Shown here in pieces: positions 45,489-63,671 of a DNA stretch of 64,000 nt (position 1 is the first letter of the stretch; each line of letters opens with the position of its first letter). The translations under genes were made by a program, and so were the position numbers. The notes below the pieces were generated by a model, which was not told where the DNA came from, made no database searches, and was given only the letters and a program-made list of their open reading frames with translations. This stretch comes from a virus. Location of the stretch: the IMG/VR virus record IMGVR_UViG_3300027621_000003, positions 1 through 64,000 of that record, one strand, 5' to 3'.

Positions 45489-46325
45489 TTAGTATCTGGT
45501 TTTAGTTCCTCCAGCAGTATAATAAGTCTTTAATACTGGTTCATCTTTAAAACTCTTCTTCATTACTTCTACATTCTTTAAGTCATCATCTGAAAAACCA
45601 ATACTAGGCACAAATTTATTTTTCACATCATCTTTAACATATAATTTTTTACCCATTTCTTTAGCCTGTCCTTTTACATATGAAATAAATTCTTTCATTG
45701 CTTGGACTTTTAATTCCTCGGGGTTGGCGGCTCCTGCGTCTGTACCAAAACTAACAGGATAATATTTGTTCATATCCATATAGTCTTTTATTAATTCCAT
45801 ATCCGATTTGTCCTCCATATTTGAAAGGTCACGGAATTTTCTAAGATTCTTAATTAATAAGTCTTTATTAATACCCATATGGTCAGAAATAATAAGATTA
45901 TAAATTGCGTCTTTAATTGTCTCGGGGTTGTGTCCACGTGCGGTGATTATTGAAAAAATTGACCCGTTGTTGATTGCCTCCACAAAATCAGACCAAGCGG
46001 GACCTGGTTTACCTTTCATGGTATCAATTTTAAATTGTTTATCACCACCCGTTCTAAAATTACGAAAAGGTTCGTCAGAATATCCAACTATTTTACTACC
46101 TTTGTAATCAAATGGTTCTACACCAATTTCACTTCTATATTCTGCAAAATCTTCTGTAGACATACCAACTTCATTGTCATTTTCATCTTTAACAATAATT
46201 TTTGTTGGCATCATCATGATATTATCATCCCAATCAAAGGCATAATATTTCATGTCAGGCGTACCAACATCATCAAAACCTTCAAGTAATGATGATGTTG
46301 GATTTAGTATTTTTTTTCTAATCAT
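45489..46325 (-). CDS. HAD-superfamily-like phosphatase
   Basis: A 278-residue protein. Motif I is YYAFDWDDN (Asp31 and Asp33, the HAD nucleophile and acid). Motif II is probably SIITARGH near residue 125-132. Motif IV is GFSDDDLKNVEVM near 245-257. The C-terminus is a short TAGGTKTRY tail. HAD enzymes use the first Asp to remove phosphate from small molecules, nucleotides or polynucleotides. It sits between tail sheath and tail tube, 7 nt after the sheath stop, an odd place for an enzyme. Substrate unknown; a virion-linked or assembly role is possible. Confidence 0.65.
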   Translation of the reverse strand: MIRKKILNPTSSLLEGFDDVGTPDMKYYAFDWDDNIMMMPTKIIVKDENDNEVGMSTEDFAEYRSEIGVEPFDYKGSKIVGYSDEPFRNFRTGGDKQFKIDTMKGKPGPAWSDFVEAINNGSIFSIITARGHNPETIKDAIYNLIISDHMGINKDLLIKNLRKFRDLSNMEDKSDMELIKDYMDMNKYYPVSFGTDAGAANPEELKVQAMKEFISYVKGQAKEMGKKLYVKDDVKNKFVPSIGFSDDDLKNVEVMKKSFKDEPVLKTYYTAGGTKTRY

Positions 46326-51477: not shown

Positions 51478-53247
51478 TTGGAAAATACTGAAAACACATA
51501 TAATGTCTCTGTGTTAGAAAGAAGGGCTCTTGATTTGTTAGAGACATATCAGGGTGCCAATAATTACATCATACGTTTAAGACAAAAACAAATTGATAAT
51601 AAAAAGTTTTACCCAACTCGTGCTCAAGCCGAGTACATTATAAATTATCACGAAACCGCACCAAAGGTTGCGAAGAAATGGGTGGAACTTGATTCTTATT
51701 TTGCCCAAAAAATTGCTAATGACAAATTACTTTCATCTGTACCAACAAAAGTATATGTTGAAAAACTTTTGGTTGAAAAAGATACCGCCTATCATATTTG
51801 GGGAAAATATTTTGAATCAGAACAAGTCTATGACTTTTGGATTCCAAAGGTTGCGTTGATAAAAGACAATAAAGTTAAGGATGTTGTGATTGATTATGAA
51901 AAATATTCTCACCGTCCACCACTTGAACACCAAAAAGAGGCTATTAAATCTTTGGTTGAGAATAAAAAGTTTATTCTTGCTGATGATATGGGTTTGGGTA
52001 AAACAACATCAACTATTATTGCCGCTTTGGAAACAGGGGCAAAAAAGATTTTGATTATTTGTCCGGCATCTTTGAAGATTAATTGGCAACGTGAGATTGA
52101 AAATTATTCAGACAAACCAACGTCAATCATTGAAGGTAAAAAATGGGAAGATGGTACTTTTGTTATCATCAATTATGACATCATTAAAAATTTCCACGAT
52201 GAAAAAAAGAAAGATGATTCTGTTTTATTGAAAACAAAGTTTGATTTGGTGATTATTGATGAAGCACACTACATTCAAAACAAACAAGCTCAAAGAACCA
52301 AGTTAATCAATGACTTTGTATCCAATGTTGAAAGACTTTGGTTGTTAACAGGTACACCAATTACTTCAAGACCAATTAATTACTTCAATTTATTGAACTT
52401 AATTGAGTGTCCTGTAGCTAAAAATTGGATGGCTTATGTTAAAAGGTATTGTAATGGTTTTCAATTCCAAGCAGGAAGAAGAAAAATTTGGAATGTTAGT
52501 GGAGCATCCAACTTGGAAGAGTTAAGAGACCGAACCGCACCCTTGGTGTTAAGAAGATTAAAGGAAAATGTTTTAGATTTACCCGATAAAATCATTACAC
52601 CAGTTTATTTAAGATTAAAATCAAAAGAATATGAAGCCTTAATGGGTGAGTATTATGATTGGTACGATAAAAATGGTGATTCTGATTCATTAACACTTCA
52701 GTTTACCAAACTTACAAAAGTAAGACAGGTGATTGCCGAAGAAAAAGTTCCATCAACAATTGAAATTTGTGAAAACATTGTTGAACAAGGTAAGAAAGTA
52801 ATTGTTTTTACTAACTTTACCAAAACATTGGAGATGATATTAGAACATTTTGGAAAAAGTGCTGTTAGACTTGATGGACAAATGTCCCAAAAAGAAAGAC
52901 AATTGTCCGTTGACCGTTTTCAAAACGATGAGAGTGTTATGGTATTTGTTGGGAACATAAAAGCCGCTGGTGTTGGTATTACATTGACAGCGGGTGAGGC
53001 GGTTGTAATGAACGATTTGTCCTTTTTACCATCAGACCACTCTCAAGCAGAGGATAGAAGTTACCGTTATGGACAAAAAAATAATGTATTAGTTTATTAT
53101 CCAATTTTTGACAACACGGTAGAAGGAATCATCTATGACATACTCAAAAAGAAGAAAGACATCTTTGAAACCGTGATGGGTGATAAGGTAGACAATGGCG
53201 ATTATGTTCAAGAAATACTAGAACTTATAAATAATTGGAGGCGATAA
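51478..53247 (+). CDS. SNF2-family DNA helicase/translocase
   Basis: A 589-residue superfamily 2 ATPase. Motif I is ADDMGLGKTT (168-177), Ia is ICPASLKINW (194-203), II is DEAH (261-264), III is WLLTGTP (about 284), IV is VIVFTNF, V is GVGITLT and VI is QAEDRSYRYGQ. The first 140 residues are a phage-type N-terminal extension. SNF2 proteins translocate on dsDNA and may anneal, reverse forks or clear protein, much as UvsW does in T4. The start is TTG at 51478; I see no suitable ATG. It opens the plus-strand island and is followed 50 nt later by the dismutase-nuclease gene. Confidence 0.82.
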   Translation: MENTENTYNVSVLERRALDLLETYQGANNYIIRLRQKQIDNKKFYPTRAQAEYIINYHETAPKVAKKWVELDSYFAQKIANDKLLSSVPTKVYVEKLLVEKDTAYHIWGKYFESEQVYDFWIPKVALIKDNKVKDVVIDYEKYSHRPPLEHQKEAIKSLVENKKFILADDMGLGKTTSTIIAALETGAKKILIICPASLKINWQREIENYSDKPTSIIEGKKWEDGTFVIINYDIIKNFHDEKKKDDSVLLKTKFDLVIIDEAHYIQNKQAQRTKLINDFVSNVERLWLLTGTPITSRPINYFNLLNLIECPVAKNWMAYVKRYCNGFQFQAGRRKIWNVSGASNLEELRDRTAPLVLRRLKENVLDLPDKIITPVYLRLKSKEYEALMGEYYDWYDKNGDSDSLTLQFTKLTKVRQVIAEEKVPSTIEICENIVEQGKKVIVFTNFTKTLEMILEHFGKSAVRLDGQMSQKERQLSVDRFQNDESVMVFVGNIKAAGVGITLTAGEAVVMNDLSFLPSDHSQAEDRSYRYGQKNNVLVYYPIFDNTVEGIIYDILKKKKDIFETVMGDKVDNGDYVQEILELINNWRR

Positions 53248-53297: not shown

Positions 53298-54842
53298 ATG
53301 AAGAATCTTAAAAATAGGATTGAAGTAATTGAAGAAGATTTACAAAAAAAAGAAGTTAAAAGACAACAAGAACAAAAAGTACAAAAAGTTGTCGCAGAAG
53401 CCAAAAACATTAAGATAGAAAAATTACCCTATTCTTATGCCGCACTAAAACAATTTATTGACCCCGAAACCATGAGTGTTCATTATAACAAACACTACAA
53501 AGGTTATGTTGATAAATTAAACGGAGCATTAAAAGATGATGAGGATTTAACCTTAGAAGAAATTGTTAAAACAATAGACAGTTTCAACAAATTCATTAGA
53601 AACAATGCGGGTGGTGCCTACAACCACCAATTGTTTTGGAAAATGTTAACACCAAAAACAACAAAACCGGGTCCAATCACACTTAAAAAAATTAATCAGA
53701 GTTTTTCATCATTTGCCGACTTTAAAAAGAAATTTGAAGGTCAATCAAAAGATAGGTTTGGTTCAGGATGGTGTTGGTTAGTTCTTACAAAACGAGGAAC
53801 CTTAAAAATTATGACAACCGCGAATCAAGACAATCCACTTATGGATGTTGTTGACCAAGGTGGTTATCCAATTTTAGGTTTGGATTTATGGGAACACGCA
53901 TATTATCTAAAATATAGAAATAGGAAAGACGAATACGTAAAAAACTTTTGGAGAGTTGTTAATTGGGACTACGTAGAGTCAGAACTTTCAAGAAAGTTAG
54001 ATAAAACAGTAAAAGAATCTACAACCGCTAAAGAATTTTTGACCGAAGCGGTTAAAAGTGAACCCTGTTCAACCCAAGATAAGATGGCATCAAAGTTATT
54101 GTTTAATACAAACAGAGATGTTCTTAATCTATACAAGAATGCCATCATGCAAATTTTAAAAGATACATTTGCTGATAGATACTACAACAAAGATGAATAC
54201 GAAAAAGGACAAATGTCGGGTGTTTATAATTTGGAAGGTAAAGGAAGGTCAGTTATAAATTATTTAAACACAAACTACAGTGCATTTTGTGTATTGAAAA
54301 AAGATATAAACAAATATCTTACAAAAGTAGGTGAGGAACCTATTATTTTTTCAGATAAAACACCAAAAGAACAAGTTATTGAAATGGCAAGAATGTTGAA
54401 GGTTTTAAACAAAGTTAAGTTTAGAGTATTCTCATTGGAGTCTGAAACATTAAAGACAGTTATGAGTGTAATGGGTGTAACATCAGACAAAGGTAATAAA
54501 ACTGAAGACGCTGTTGTTGAAAAACTAAAAAAACAATTTGGTGATGAAAATGTAACTCGTATTGGTGAACTTGGAAACAAAGAAGATATGATGACGGGTG
54601 TTGATGTTAAGATTATGGTTGATGGTGTTGAAAAAACCGCACAGGTAAAACCATTCAGTCACATAACAAGAAATGATGACATGTATAAAGTTGACGGAAC
54701 CGCAAATGTTAAAAAATATCAAACAAATTGGATGATTTTTATGAAACGTTTGGATGATATGGTAATCTTTGATAATTCAAATACAAAAATCATTGACGGA
54801 GTTTATTATTTCCTAATTGATGCCAAGTTGTATCAATTATAA
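53298..54842 (+). CDS. Mn-type superoxide dismutase fused to putative PD-(D/E)XK nuclease domain
   Basis: A 514-residue protein. Residues 1-38 are a charged, coiled-coil-like helix. Residues 39-232 are a full iron/manganese superoxide dismutase. The four metal ligands are His62 (VHYNKHY), His110 (NNAGGAYNHQLFW), Asp196 and His200 (GLDLWEHAYYLKYRNR). His66, Tyr70 and Trp198 are kept. Gly at 105-106 and Gln177 (TANQDNPLMD) are the Mn-type signature. Residues about 245-390 are helical. Residues about 398-514 fit a PD-(D/E)XK nuclease: Glu403 in a helix, Asp436 in GVDVKI, and Gln449-Val-Lys451 in TAQVKPF. No secretion signal. Downstream is a neck-like gene, upstream an SNF2 helicase. The dismutase call is firm; the nuclease call is by motif; the reason for the fusion is unknown. 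Confidence 0.82.
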   Translation: MKNLKNRIEVIEEDLQKKEVKRQQEQKVQKVVAEAKNIKIEKLPYSYAALKQFIDPETMSVHYNKHYKGYVDKLNGALKDDEDLTLEEIVKTIDSFNKFIRNNAGGAYNHQLFWKMLTPKTTKPGPITLKKINQSFSSFADFKKKFEGQSKDRFGSGWCWLVLTKRGTLKIMTTANQDNPLMDVVDQGGYPILGLDLWEHAYYLKYRNRKDEYVKNFWRVVNWDYVESELSRKLDKTVKESTTAKEFLTEAVKSEPCSTQDKMASKLLFNTNRDVLNLYKNAIMQILKDTFADRYYNKDEYEKGQMSGVYNLEGKGRSVINYLNTNYSAFCVLKKDINKYLTKVGEEPIIFSDKTPKEQVIEMARMLKVLNKVKFRVFSLESETLKTVMSVMGVTSDKGNKTEDAVVEKLKKQFGDENVTRIGELGNKEDMMTGVDVKIMVDGVEKTAQVKPFSHITRNDDMYKVDGTANVKKYQTNWMIFMKRLDDMVIFDNSNTKIIDGVYYFLIDAKLYQL

Positions 54843-54869: not shown

Positions 54870-55985
54870 ATGGTAGTTATTGCTGAACCAGAAAGAACCA
54901 AACTGTATAACAGGATTTTAAATCAACTTGGAGCTCCATTAAGAGCTGTGGAATTAGAATTTGAAATGATGGATTCATTACTTGAATTATCCATCGGTGA
55001 CTATACGCAATATCTTTATGACTGGTTAATTGAATCACAATGGACAACATTGTATGGTATGAATTTGGATACCCAATCAGTAGCAAATGCTTTAATTAGA
55101 CGAAGTCTTGATTGGGAAACACAATACACTTACGCATATTCTAAAATTGTTGGTCTTCAAAACTCAGGTCCTTGGGTACTTAAAAAGGATTACTTTGAAT
55201 TACAACAAAATGTACAAATATATGAAATACCTGCGGGTCGTGAAATTAACGAACTTTTATGGTATTCACCAGCCGAGCAAAACAATTTGTTATTTGACCC
55301 TTTTTCATTGGGTAGTCTTGGTGGTATAGGTGGATTTGGTGGTGTAGGTGGGTTTGCTCAAGCGGGTAACGGTGGAGGATATTTTATGTTATCATCTTAT
55401 GATGTGTTAGCAAGACAACAAGACTTAAATCTTAAAAGAAGAATTATTCAACCCGATGTTAGTTATCGTGTAACAGCACTTCCCGATGGAAAAAGAGCGG
55501 TTATGTTGTATAACACACCTGGTGGTAGATTTGACTTTGGTGATAATGAATTAATGAGAGGCCGTGTTTGGTATTGGTATTATGACACAACTGATGCTGA
55601 CAGAGACCAATGTCTTAAAGATAATCCCGATATCGTAAAATTACCATCAGACATTCCATTAGACGAATTAAGCTGGATTGATTTAAACGACCCTGCAAGA
55701 CAATGGGTTAGAAGATGGTTCACCGCATACTGCAAAGAGACCTTGGCTCGTGTAAGGGGTAAATTCAGTGGTAATTTGAAGACACCTGATAGTGAATTAA
55801 CAATGGATTATCAGTCTCTTCAAACCGAAGCTAAAGATGAAAAAGTTTCTTTAGTGACAGAACTCCAACTAAGATTAGAAAGATTACGTCCTGAAAAACA
55901 AATGGAAAAAGAAGGTTCTATTGCTGAAAATTTAAACAAGCAATTAAAATATAGAGCAATGCCAATACCAATAACTGTTGTATAA
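54870..55985 (+). CDS. Neck/head-completion protein, possibly gp13-like
   Basis: A 371-residue protein. The N-terminus (RTKLYNRILNQLGAPLRAVE, then FEMMDSLLELSIGDYTQYLY) fits the helical opening of T4 gp13-like neck proteins, in which a 'v...LG.p...vel....id..i..al..y' pattern is common. The centre has a Gly/Phe loop (LGGIGGFGGVGGFAQAGNGG, about 149-168). The C-terminal half has Trp/Tyr-rich strands (GRVWYWYYDTTDADRD) and ends with a helix and RAMPIPITVV. Role in closing the head and joining the tail is inferred from pattern and from the neck/terminator genes nearby. Confidence 0.55.
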   Translation: MVVIAEPERTKLYNRILNQLGAPLRAVELEFEMMDSLLELSIGDYTQYLYDWLIESQWTTLYGMNLDTQSVANALIRRSLDWETQYTYAYSKIVGLQNSGPWVLKKDYFELQQNVQIYEIPAGREINELLWYSPAEQNNLLFDPFSLGSLGGIGGFGGVGGFAQAGNGGGYFMLSSYDVLARQQDLNLKRRIIQPDVSYRVTALPDGKRAVMLYNTPGGRFDFGDNELMRGRVWYWYYDTTDADRDQCLKDNPDIVKLPSDIPLDELSWIDLNDPARQWVRRWFTAYCKETLARVRGKFSGNLKTPDSELTMDYQSLQTEAKDEKVSLVTELQLRLERLRPEKQMEKEGSIAENLNKQLKYRAMPIPITVV

Positions 55986-59547: not shown

Positions 59548-61221
59548 TTAAGATTCTTTTCTTAATGAACCATCATAAAAATCAAACCTATCATGTTCAG
59601 TAGGTGTCATAAGTAAGAGTCCTGGATTGATTTCTCCCTTGATTGTTTCTTGGAAAATATAACTCATCCAAGTTTGTTCAAATGGATGTCCCCATGTTGT
59701 TTCTAAAAACATTTTCTTATTACCATGACGGGTCACAACTTGTGGCCAGTTACAATAATAAATCTCACCAGATACAAATGGAACACCATTGTGAGTCCTC
59801 ACATGTTTAAATTTTGTTCTTGGAGCATTTGGGTCTTGACCATGAACAGGTAAATTGGGTTTTTCAGGCCAGTGTTCTAATCTAAAGTTTTGTGGGACAT
59901 TGTACCACGACCATTGGATACCATTATCACCATAAAATTCGCTATAATTAAACTTTAAAAAATCAAAGTGATTGTTTTTTGTAATTTCTAAGGTGTTTTT
60001 GTATAAATTTGGAACATATCTATTAAATCCATTCCTACATACCTCACCTTTATTTGGGTAAAAGAACATATCATCTTCAAAAAAGAAATGAAAATCAAAT
60101 CCATTTTCTTCAGCATGTTCTGAAATCCATTGTCTACCACCACAGATACCTAAATTGTCTTTCTTAATATGTTCAAAACCAAATTCATTACAAATTACCG
60201 AGTATTCCTCGGTAGTTGATAAATCAGATGAATTATCCAAAAGATATTTTTTTGGTTTATCTAAAAAATCTTTATCATATTGAATCATTGATTCAATTAA
60301 TGTTTTAAATTGTTTTGGGCTATTAAATGTTATAACATATAATGCCGTGTTGTCTGTATTCAAATCATCATTAATTGGTGTAAATCCCTGTTTGTTGTTT
60401 TTCTCTAATGTTTCATTCTTTAAATCCTCAAAGAATTTCCCAAATAAACCATTTGATTCAATTTCAAAGTAGTCAATTAAATCGGCATGTTTATAACACA
60501 TGATTGAAAATATTGACTCCTCAGTCCCCATAAGTCCACGAGACAACGTAGATGATAACAAATTGTAATAAATCCCGTTAATGTCCCCTATTGTGTGTTT
60601 TGGACCACCAAAGAACCCACCACGTGCAACCATTTCCACCTTTTCACCAACAATTCCATTAAGTTGATTAAAGTTAAATCCGTGTATTTCGTTTTCAGCT
60701 TGATATGGGAAACAAACAAATGAAAATTTGTTAATATGGTTAGGTAATTTCTCTAAGACTTTATCATGTGTAAAATAACCAGGGTGAACCGTGTTTGTTA
60801 AACCAGCATCAATCCAAAACATCATGTCTGAATTAAATGGGTCCATAATTCTGGCGTCATTTAACAAAAATACCTTTGACATAACCAAAGGATTATACAT
60901 ATCTAATCTTGCTTGTGTTGATTGTGATAACCAACCCGCCTGATTATACCATTCGGGGTTTGTTCTGATTGTTTGTATTTTGTCATAAAATTCATTTTTG
61001 AACCATTCTTGACTGCGAGATATAAACAATGTATTATCTTTGTTTCGTCTTTCAAAAACAAATGATTCTAAATCAGAATCACCAAAAATTATCATTGGAT
61101 TATCAACTTTTAATAGTTGGTCAAATTTATCCAAATAATGTTGAAATGAACGTGACCAACCTTCTTCTAGTTCATCACGTTTAATATTCCAAAGTCCCGT
61201 TACTAATGTTATTTTACTCAT
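59548..61221 (-). CDS. Two-domain glycosyltransferase (HtrL/YibB-like plus GT-A-like)
   Basis: A 557-residue protein. Residues 1 to about 265 match the HtrL/YibB (WlaTC-type) glycosyltransferase family: VTGLWNIKRDELEEGW, NPMIIFGDSDLESFVFERRN, YNPLVMSKVFLLNDARI, FWIDAGLTNTVHPGYFTHDK. Residues about 285-557 are a GT-A-like domain with DNSSDLSTTEEYSVICNEFG, NLGICGGRQWISEHAE and an acidic metal motif FFFEDDMFF (about 380). It therefore may add two sugars. Its start overlaps the nucleotidyltransferase stop by 8 nt. Targets could be host surface sugars or the phage's own Ser/Thr-rich fibres. Confidence 0.7.
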   Translation of the reverse strand: MSKITLVTGLWNIKRDELEEGWSRSFQHYLDKFDQLLKVDNPMIIFGDSDLESFVFERRNKDNTLFISRSQEWFKNEFYDKIQTIRTNPEWYNQAGWLSQSTQARLDMYNPLVMSKVFLLNDARIMDPFNSDMMFWIDAGLTNTVHPGYFTHDKVLEKLPNHINKFSFVCFPYQAENEIHGFNFNQLNGIVGEKVEMVARGGFFGGPKHTIGDINGIYYNLLSSTLSRGLMGTEESIFSIMCYKHADLIDYFEIESNGLFGKFFEDLKNETLEKNNKQGFTPINDDLNTDNTALYVITFNSPKQFKTLIESMIQYDKDFLDKPKKYLLDNSSDLSTTEEYSVICNEFGFEHIKKDNLGICGGRQWISEHAEENGFDFHFFFEDDMFFYPNKGEVCRNGFNRYVPNLYKNTLEITKNNHFDFLKFNYSEFYGDNGIQWSWYNVPQNFRLEHWPEKPNLPVHGQDPNAPRTKFKHVRTHNGVPFVSGEIYYCNWPQVVTRHGNKKMFLETTWGHPFEQTWMSYIFQETIKGEINPGLLLMTPTEHDRFDFYDGSLRKES

Positions 61222-62797
61222 TTTTATTTTTTATATTTTTAAAATATTTATTCCAATAATTGTAGGTTTTATAATCGTTTGGTGTACCCCAACAGATGTA
61301 ATTTTCAACCTCAAAAACTTTAACTTTTAAACCATCTTTAATATTTTGATTTAAAACATCATCAACATAAAATTCACCATTTGTTCTTATGTTTTCATTA
61401 TAATTTTTCTGTAATCCCTCCATAAAATATGTTCCCTTCCTGAAAAACATTGTACCAATTATTGCGTGAGTGATTAAAGGGTTTTCATAAATAAATTTTT
61501 TACAAGAAACATGTTTTATGTTATCATTCTCATCAACATCTAACCACGCATATGCGTTCGGATTAGTTTTACTGGCTTGATTATTTCTAAAAGTCCAAAC
61601 TATTACATCAATAGATTCATCATTTAAAAGTTCTAAATATTTTTTTCTATCATAAAAAACACCATTATCACAAGCGGAAATTAAAATGGGGTTTTCTAAG
61701 TTTATATTTGTTTCTTCAATACCTATTTCACAAGTACATGCCTGACCTTCAGTGGTTTCATTAATTGATATAACCTCTGTATTTAAAAAATGATTTTTTA
61801 AAGTCTTATCAATACCAAAATCGTCAATATGGTCTTGTAAACAAATAAACACATTATTGTCTGACTCAGGTAAACAATCAACGGCTTGTAAAATCATGGG
61901 TAATCCATCAACATCTAAAAGTGGTTTTGGTAAATCATATCCTTCTTCAGTAAATCTTGAACCTTTACCAGCCATAGGAAGTATCAAGGTGGTGTTTGGC
62001 GGGTTTTTTATTTTTATTTGTGGGAGATTAATATTTGAGAAGTATTTTGACCAACCTTTATAATTCTCTAAATCATAAGGAGTTCCCCACTGTAACATGT
62101 TTTCAATCTCAAATATACCAACTTTAAGACCATCATTAACTAACAGGTTATAAAGTAAACTTACATAATATTCACCATTTATATTAATGTCTAAATCAAT
62201 AAGTTTTTGAGAATATTCTTTTAATAAATTACCCGATTTAAAATAATACGTACCATTTGATGCGTATTCATTCATTTTGTTGTCAGTAAAAGGTTCTTTT
62301 TCTTTTATTTGAATAAGCTCCATATTACTTTCTTTACAGAAAGCATAATTGTCACTACCTAACATATGTGGGTGAAATCCTGTATAACAAGGAATTGCAC
62401 CATCAAGATTTTTATCATTTACGTAATTAATAAAATTTTCAAAATCCCAATAAGTTCCATAATCACAATAACTCACAATTGTTTGTTTGTTATTATCAAT
62501 AAAATCAAATATTTGATGAATTGCGTTTATTGGTCCCTTTGTGTTATTAGCAACTTCAAATATTCTACAATTTGGGGAAATATCATTAAGAACTTTCCTC
62601 ATATTTGTTTGTTTTAAATGAATATCATTACAAATAAAAATAACATCCTTTACACCAGGAAATAAATCAACAACATGTTTTATTATAGGATAACCATCAA
62701 CATCAATTAATGATTTGGTTTTTTCATATCCAGCGTCTATGAACCTTTTACCAATACCTGACATTGGTATAATTAATTGAATATTATTATCAATCAT
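61214..62797 (-). CDS. Tandem sugar-nucleotidyltransferase (two NTP_transferase domains)
   Basis: 527 residues from the ATG at 62797, 1 nt after the preceding stop; a longer TTG-started form overlapping that gene is less likely. Two domains share the pyrophosphorylase opening: LIIPMSGIGKRFIDAGYEKT with KSLIDVDG near the start, and LILPMAGKGSRFTEEGYDLP with KPLLDVDG from about residue 270. Each half also closes with a WGTP(Y/N)DxxxY motif, so the gene looks like an internal duplication. Such enzymes activate sugar-1-phosphates as NDP-sugars. The first copy has Lys-Ser in place of the usual Lys-Pro and may have changed specificity. Confidence 0.75.
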   Translation of the reverse strand: MIDNNIQLIIPMSGIGKRFIDAGYEKTKSLIDVDGYPIIKHVVDLFPGVKDVIFICNDIHLKQTNMRKVLNDISPNCRIFEVANNTKGPINAIHQIFDFIDNNKQTIVSYCDYGTYWDFENFINYVNDKNLDGAIPCYTGFHPHMLGSDNYAFCKESNMELIQIKEKEPFTDNKMNEYASNGTYYFKSGNLLKEYSQKLIDLDININGEYYVSLLYNLLVNDGLKVGIFEIENMLQWGTPYDLENYKGWSKYFSNINLPQIKIKNPPNTTLILPMAGKGSRFTEEGYDLPKPLLDVDGLPMILQAVDCLPESDNNVFICLQDHIDDFGIDKTLKNHFLNTEVISINETTEGQACTCEIGIEETNINLENPILISACDNGVFYDRKKYLELLNDESIDVIVWTFRNNQASKTNPNAYAWLDVDENDNIKHVSCKKFIYENPLITHAIIGTMFFRKGTYFMEGLQKNYNENIRTNGEFYVDDVLNQNIKDGLKVKVFEVENYICWGTPNDYKTYNYWNKYFKNIKNKNE

Positions 62798-62798
62798 A

Positions 62799-63671
62799 TT
62801 AAAATGGCATATCAATGAATTTTTCGGGGTCATCAATGATTTTATTTATAATTAAATCATTCATATTGTAATTGGCTCCCTTAAAGTGGTTATAAAAACT
62901 AATAATTTTATCTTTAGTTTCTTTATTGTTGAATATTTGGCTTGTGTCGTGTGAAAAATTATAAAATTTAAGATTATAACTATCATAAACACAATTTGAC
63001 TCAAGTATGTTAGTATCTGAATATTTGTTTGGTATTTGGGGAATATTTAATCTTTCTAAGATTTGATTAGTTATCCATATATTGAAATAAGGTGTTAAAT
63101 GATTTTGTGTGACAAATAATCTCTTATCTTTATAATGTTCTAATATAAAATCAGATACTTTTATATCACAAATTTCATCTTTCTCTTTCAATAATTCCAT
63201 ACAAACATTCATTCTTTCTTCAAAATAAAAATCAATTAAACCATTGTCATACAAATTTATAATTTCATCAATTTTACGTTTTTCTAAAATCAAAGACATT
63301 ATATTTTTCCATCCACAATTAATTAATGTTTGAAGTGTCCATCTTGGCGAAGCGTCTTCCCAATAAGTGGTATAAAATGATGAGTTGTATACATAGGGAA
63401 AACTAATTTTTACACAACTGTCTTTTAACATTGATTTTAAATTCTCTGTACCATAAACTCCGTGACTTTCTCCAAGTGGTTGGTATATAAAAACATCACA
63501 GTTTTTAAGTTCATCAACATCAATATTTACTAATTTTTTTGTTTGTTCTCTATCATGATTCACATAGGATATTAAATCATAATGTTTTTTGAATTCAGGT
63601 AAATTATTTAATAATTCATAAACATAAATAATGGCCTGACAATTGCCATATAGTATACATTTTTTTTTCAT
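62799..63671 (-). CDS. WcbI-like polysaccharide biosynthesis protein (putative acyltransferase)
   Basis: A 290-residue protein. The start MKKKCILYGNCQAIIYVYEL is the WcbI hallmark (GNCQ near the N-terminus), followed by DVFIYQPLGESHGVYGTENL and later VTQNHLTPYFN. WcbI-family proteins bind CoA and take part in capsule sugar modification, probably acetylation. It lies between a partial glycosyltransferase (4 nt upstream) and the nucleotidyltransferase (1 nt downstream), so the three form a tight unit. Confidence 0.65.
   Translation of the reverse strand: MKKKCILYGNCQAIIYVYELLNNLPEFKKHYDLISYVNHDREQTKKLVNIDVDELKNCDVFIYQPLGESHGVYGTENLKSMLKDSCVKISFPYVYNSSFYTTYWEDASPRWTLQTLINCGWKNIMSLILEKRKIDEIINLYDNGLIDFYFEERMNVCMELLKEKDEICDIKVSDFILEHYKDKRLFVTQNHLTPYFNIWITNQILERLNIPQIPNKYSDTNILESNCVYDSYNLKFYNFSHDTSQIFNNKETKDKIISFYNHFKGANYNMNDLIINKIIDDPEKFIDMPF

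Follow-up and report, generated by a model that had tools for sequence, protein, structure and literature searches.

What is a superoxide dismutase (SOD) doing among the structural genes of a large phage, joined in one chain to a nuclease-like domain? The gene that raises this question lies in the window, the 64,000-nt stretch analysed here, which belongs to a virus record of 294,914 bases whose bases 64001-293000 were examined alongside it. The gene is a single uninterrupted frame of 514 codons that places a leader, the SOD and the nuclease-like domain in that order (Table 1), so that the joining of the two domains in one frame, proposed in an earlier note on this DNA, holds. The phage structural neighbourhood described there is equally evident: tail tube and sheath genes, identified from sequence, and a neck adaptor, identified by its PHROG match, lie nearby, and the fusion gene adjoins the neck gene and sits outside the gp21-gp23 cluster. 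Two further proteins of this region deserve mention, a HAD-like protein (YAFDWDDNI; 45489-46325, minus strand) encoded between the tail tube and sheath genes, whose N-terminus, SSLLE/G, resembles a cleavage site (the slash marking the point of cutting), and a nucleotidyltransferase-like protein with two similar halves (61214-62836, minus strand) encoded beside structural genes.

Table 1. Coordinates of the fusion gene, its parts, its neighbours and related features (window or record positions unless a handle is given).
Feature	Position	Strand	Remarks
Whole gene	53298..54842	+	514 aa, leader-SOD-nuclease-like
Leader, predicted capsid-targeting propeptide	53298..53399	+	residues 1-34; helical, disordered at end; targeting predicted
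Predicted cleavage site 1, VVAE34/A	53388..53402	+	conserved position
Mn-type superoxide dismutase domain	53412..53993	+	residues 39-232; Pfam, PDB, ligands, fold, pN/pS
Predicted cleavage site 2, FLTE250/A	54036..54050	+	L/I-x-E in linkers; letters of the T4 gp23 site
C-terminal nuclease-like domain	54048..54839	+	residues 251-514; AF2 pLDDT 86, pTM 0.78
E403, PD-(D/E)XK-type motif	54504..54506	+	invariant
D436, PD-(D/E)XK-type motif	54603..54605	+	invariant
Q449-V-K451, PD-(D/E)XK-type motif	54642..54650	+	Q and K invariant
SNF2-type helicase, conserved left (upstream) neighbour	51478..53247	+
Head-tail adaptor (neck), conserved right (downstream) neighbour	54870..55985	+	PHROG 211 E=1.6e-9; synteny
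gp21-like protease	109010-109741	-	PF03420 1.4e-24; ELNHP-, SSRG-type motifs align with T4 gp21
gp23-like capsid protein	105167-107023	-	PF07068 2.9e-64
HExxH + SOD + other domain	L346:4885-6984		also L347, L348, L352, L353

The first of the two is a complete dismutase domain. A domain search of residues 39-232 returns both Pfam families above cut-off, Sod_Fe_N (2.9e-20, residues 39-117) and Sod_Fe_C (1.9e-38, residues 129-228), all 60 matches listed in a PDB sequence search are SODs, with Mn-SODs reaching 4e-58, and the SOD part of the model superposes on the Sphingobacterium MnSOD 6gsc with a TM of 0.88 to the target and an rmsd of 1.5. The metal ligands claimed earlier (H62, H110, D196, H200) do not vary among 13 homologues reaching down to about 40% identity, and the same set also keeps H66, Y70, Q177, E199 and Y203 of the second sphere, the gateway Tyr and second-sphere Gln among them. 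AGGAYNH and the Gln of NQDNPLM are signatures of the Mn type in this family, and Mn is the predicted metal. Purifying selection on the codons of the domain is strong, with pN/pS of 0.07-0.17; it also acts on the nuclease-like domain, but in pairs at greater distance it is tighter on the SOD, which is seemingly an active enzyme. The window domain shares the complete domain structure, the ligands, the Mn-type AGG and the Gln in NQDNPLM with the Fe/Mn SOD family, whereas the SODs of this locus add the leader and the fusion, and in a tree a branch of support 100 splits them from bacterial SODs, with unresolved order at its base. The closest bacterial sequences are MnSODs of Bacteroidota, at about 50% identity, which is a hint, and no more, at the host.

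In the C-terminal domain the E...D...QVK pattern reported in the earlier note is present, and G399, E403, D430, D436, Q449, K451 and Y474 are invariant in 17 phage homologues; all seven also occur in a protein with 23% identity that a 735-kb phage encodes. This last protein (LR756501.1, L096:5743-6612) is a nuclease-like domain with neither SOD nor leader, and a search that started from it found no relatives. The domain search suggested earlier for this region gave nothing significant against Pfam, PHROG, NCBIfam or PDB profiles, and the domain has no Pfam family. In a fold search of its model the best PDB match, a weak one, is I-Ssp6803I (E=6e-3, prob 1.00), followed by Hjc Holliday-junction resolvases (prob 0.5-0.84), the TM to target being low, at 0.4-0.5, for these enzymes. 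The SOD half of the earlier reading is thus borne out in sequence and in fold, the nuclease half by its invariant E-D-QxK residues together with a weak fold match. A PD-(D/E)XK-type assignment is likely on these grounds, and the domain is a putative nuclease; the pattern is common to all three, and the window domain has an extra N-terminal helical region relative to the known enzymes.

Candidate processing sites mark both domain boundaries, each of which carries [hydrophobic]-x-E and so resembles the motif of the T4 prohead protease. Cleavage by T4 gp21 follows L/I-X-E, and the targeting propeptides of T4 may serve T4-like phages to package varied proteins (PMC9026906). Site 1 stands eight residues before the (K/R)LPY of the SOD, with E at P1 in 20 of 22 lineages, a hydrophobic residue at P3 in 21 (L/I in 18) and a variable P2. 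The propeptide ends in L/I-X-E in most lineages, that of the window in V-A-E, with V and not L/I at P3, and a few relatives depart from the motif (L301 VLIQ/T, L146 IMKE). Among 23 lineages, clustered at 80%, L/I-x-E is found in the linker before the nuclease-like domain in 21, against 7.1 expected and a maximum of 14 in 2000 shuffles. It is found in the leaders in 18 of 23 (10.9 expected), a test that is moderate by itself because 18 is also the highest of 2000 shuffles. Since the lineages share ancestry such shuffles overstate independence, and the stronger point would seem to be that P1 and P3 stay constant while P2 between them is free to change. In the AF2 model the only segments with pLDDT <50 are residues 25-44 and 242-251, each containing one predicted site. 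A leader HMM run against this genome detected no second protein above shuffled controls; a leader common to several proteins of one phage is seen for some T4 internal proteins and is not required. A scan for T4 late promoters found no clear late promoter and was uninformative.

The same genome encodes homologues of the T4 protease and capsid protein (Table 1). Residues 62-66 of T4 gp23 are FLTEA, the letters of site 2 in the window, and gp23 is cut after residue 65; where T4 gp23 has FLTE65/A, the capsid protein of this phage, once aligned, has LINE60/A. With the T4 internal head proteins (IPI-III and Alt, whose targeting sequences are cut by gp21) the locus has in common an N-terminal propeptide ending in [hydrophobic]-x-E, a gp21-like protease and gp23-like capsid protein in the genome, and a cargo that is variable and dispensable. 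It differs in that the cargo is MnSOD and a nuclease-like domain rather than an IP or an ADP-ribosyltransferase, in that two predicted cuts would yield two enzymes from behind a longer leader, and in that packaging here is a prediction. The T4 proteins serve as a working likeness, and membership of their class is not established, given the negative shared-leader test and the predicted nature of cleavage and packaging.

Searches of viral contigs recovered 76 distinct fused sequences, 29 of the nuclease-like domain alone and 9 of the SOD alone, counts that include partial and frame-broken records; the fused sequences reach down to 39% identity. Nearly all of the sequences recovered have the SNF2-type helicase on their left and the neck adaptor on their right. 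The frame is broken in L009 (6944-8484, at the SOD-nuclease linker) and in L078 (865-2266), either by sequencing error or in reality. In one clade (L079-L088) the two domains are separate genes, overlapping or adjoining (the overlap in L086 is TAATG), and a site stands near the start of each product, FVLNE/E and NIFE/A. L091 has the SOD alone at the locus, and lineages lacking the SOD retain the leader, a site and the nuclease-like domain. At the same locus, L346-L353 encode a protein of the 699-aa type in which a HExxH domain precedes the same SOD, followed in turn by a C-terminal domain unrelated to the nuclease-like one (RGFDFE...SPYDV...SCK), with FLLE/M (or equivalents) and VLLE/N at the corresponding boundaries; that this alternative domain is also a nuclease is a guess from its residues. 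A quick, unrooted tree built on the nuclease-like domain puts the forms without SOD at three separate points within fused clades, and because of this nesting loss of the SOD, about three times, is likelier than repeated gain. L311, the sister of fused L334 (support 99), reads ...SINEMKKIEIEK-LKSIISEGKSER..., the SOD having been removed in frame, and both L310 and L311 keep the two flanking sites around the deletion.

The explanation that we favour, and consider probable, is that the gene product is a capsid-targeted polyprotein. The leader would direct the precursor into the prohead core, where the gp21-like prohead protease would cut after E34 and after E250 and so free an Mn-superoxide dismutase (about residues 35-250) and a PD-(D/E)XK-type nuclease (251-514). 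Both enzymes would remain in the head through DNA packaging and then be injected with the DNA in the manner of T4 internal proteins, the dismutase most likely clearing superoxide from the surroundings of the phage DNA, either in the virion or as infection passes through its first minutes, and the nuclease most likely working on DNA inside the new host. Each step, from targeting through cleavage and packaging to injection, is what we infer from the comparisons above, as are the two enzyme activities. Weighing against this reading are the shortness of the L/I-x-E motif, the V at P3 of site 1 in the window, the relatives that depart from the motif, the failure to detect the leader on a second protein of this genome or to find a clear late promoter, and the position of the gene away from the gp21-gp23 cluster. 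A SOD depends on neither a reductant nor a supplied cofactor and could therefore function within the capsid. Of the roles suggested in the earlier note, that of a virion-bound enzyme is the best supported. The broader proposition, that large T4-like aquatic phages widely package an active MnSOD and a nuclease in their heads from one protease-split precursor, inject both and keep the locus for exchangeable cargo, we hold to be slightly more probable than otherwise.

The alternatives differ greatly in their standing. An assembly frameshift joining two genes, a concern raised in the earlier note, is excluded by the occurrence of the same fusion on dozens of independent contigs, among 76 distinct fused sequences that lie in the same gene order; we found no point in support of a chimera, and its probability is negligible. 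Reuse of the SOD fold as a non-catalytic, metal-binding structural domain would suit a gene standing among structural genes, and is nevertheless very improbable in view of the invariance of ligand, gateway and other second-sphere residues, the low pN/pS, and the loss of the SOD in lineages that keep the locus; this suggestion too came from the earlier note and is not favoured.

Two readings that take the SOD as an enzyme require more thought. The protein might act uncut in the infected cell as a true bifunctional enzyme, the SOD shielding DNA or the nuclease from superoxide and the nuclease processing DNA as heads and tails are joined, and it is consistent with this that most lineages are fused, that the gene adjoins the neck gene and the helicase, that purifying selection acts on both domains and that AF2 gives both folds in one chain. 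Physical linkage is however not needed, since the domains also occur as separate genes, as nuclease alone, as SOD alone and, in the same place, as SOD joined to different domains, and protease-type sites stand at both boundaries. The earlier note did not describe the leader, these two sites, the forms with separate genes or without SOD, or the alternative fusion; together they favour a polyprotein whose parts act separately, and we regard a bifunctional enzyme as unlikely. It might also be argued that the SOD is a cytoplasmic auxiliary metabolic enzyme, as the stand-alone SODs of jumbo phages appear to be, to which a nuclease was fused by chance. Such genes exist in Wroclawvirus (Callisto) and Vibrio phage 2.275.O, where their neighbours are genes of chaperone, protease-adaptor or translation type, and both they and the fusion are encoded by jumbo phages, but they are annotated at 549-570 bp, lie on a distant branch, are 28-29% identical to the window SOD and occupy different neighbourhoods. 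The fusion locus lies among structural genes and its leader survives loss of the SOD, so that the auxiliary role appears quite improbable, less probable than the bifunctional enzyme.

If the packaged polyprotein is real, it would be a first sign that an antioxidant enzyme travels within phage virions, and delivery of the T4 internal-protein type would then include polyproteins whose enzymes can be exchanged. Superoxide would seem to be of consequence for the phage genome, either inside the virion or on entry, and [hydrophobic]-x-E at domain boundaries would become a sequence signature by which the packaged cargo of uncultured jumbo phages can be recognised. A search of the open-access literature, which left most subscription journals outside its reach, gave no precedent for a head-packaged SOD, and in the sequence records searched phages encode their SODs as stand-alone genes. 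Several phage-labelled records carry host-like bacterial SODs, probably through bacterial contamination. Elsewhere in this genome, outside the window (182259-194437, 226063-228620 and 252876-253166), many unrelated small proteins start with short tags such as MKIIISESQ, MKKIIRLTESDL...VISE and MNLQENI.RIK.MMG, with [ILVF]xE[SGANQ] occurring 30 times in residues 2-12 against 8 expected, and these are possibly capsid-targeting tags as well.
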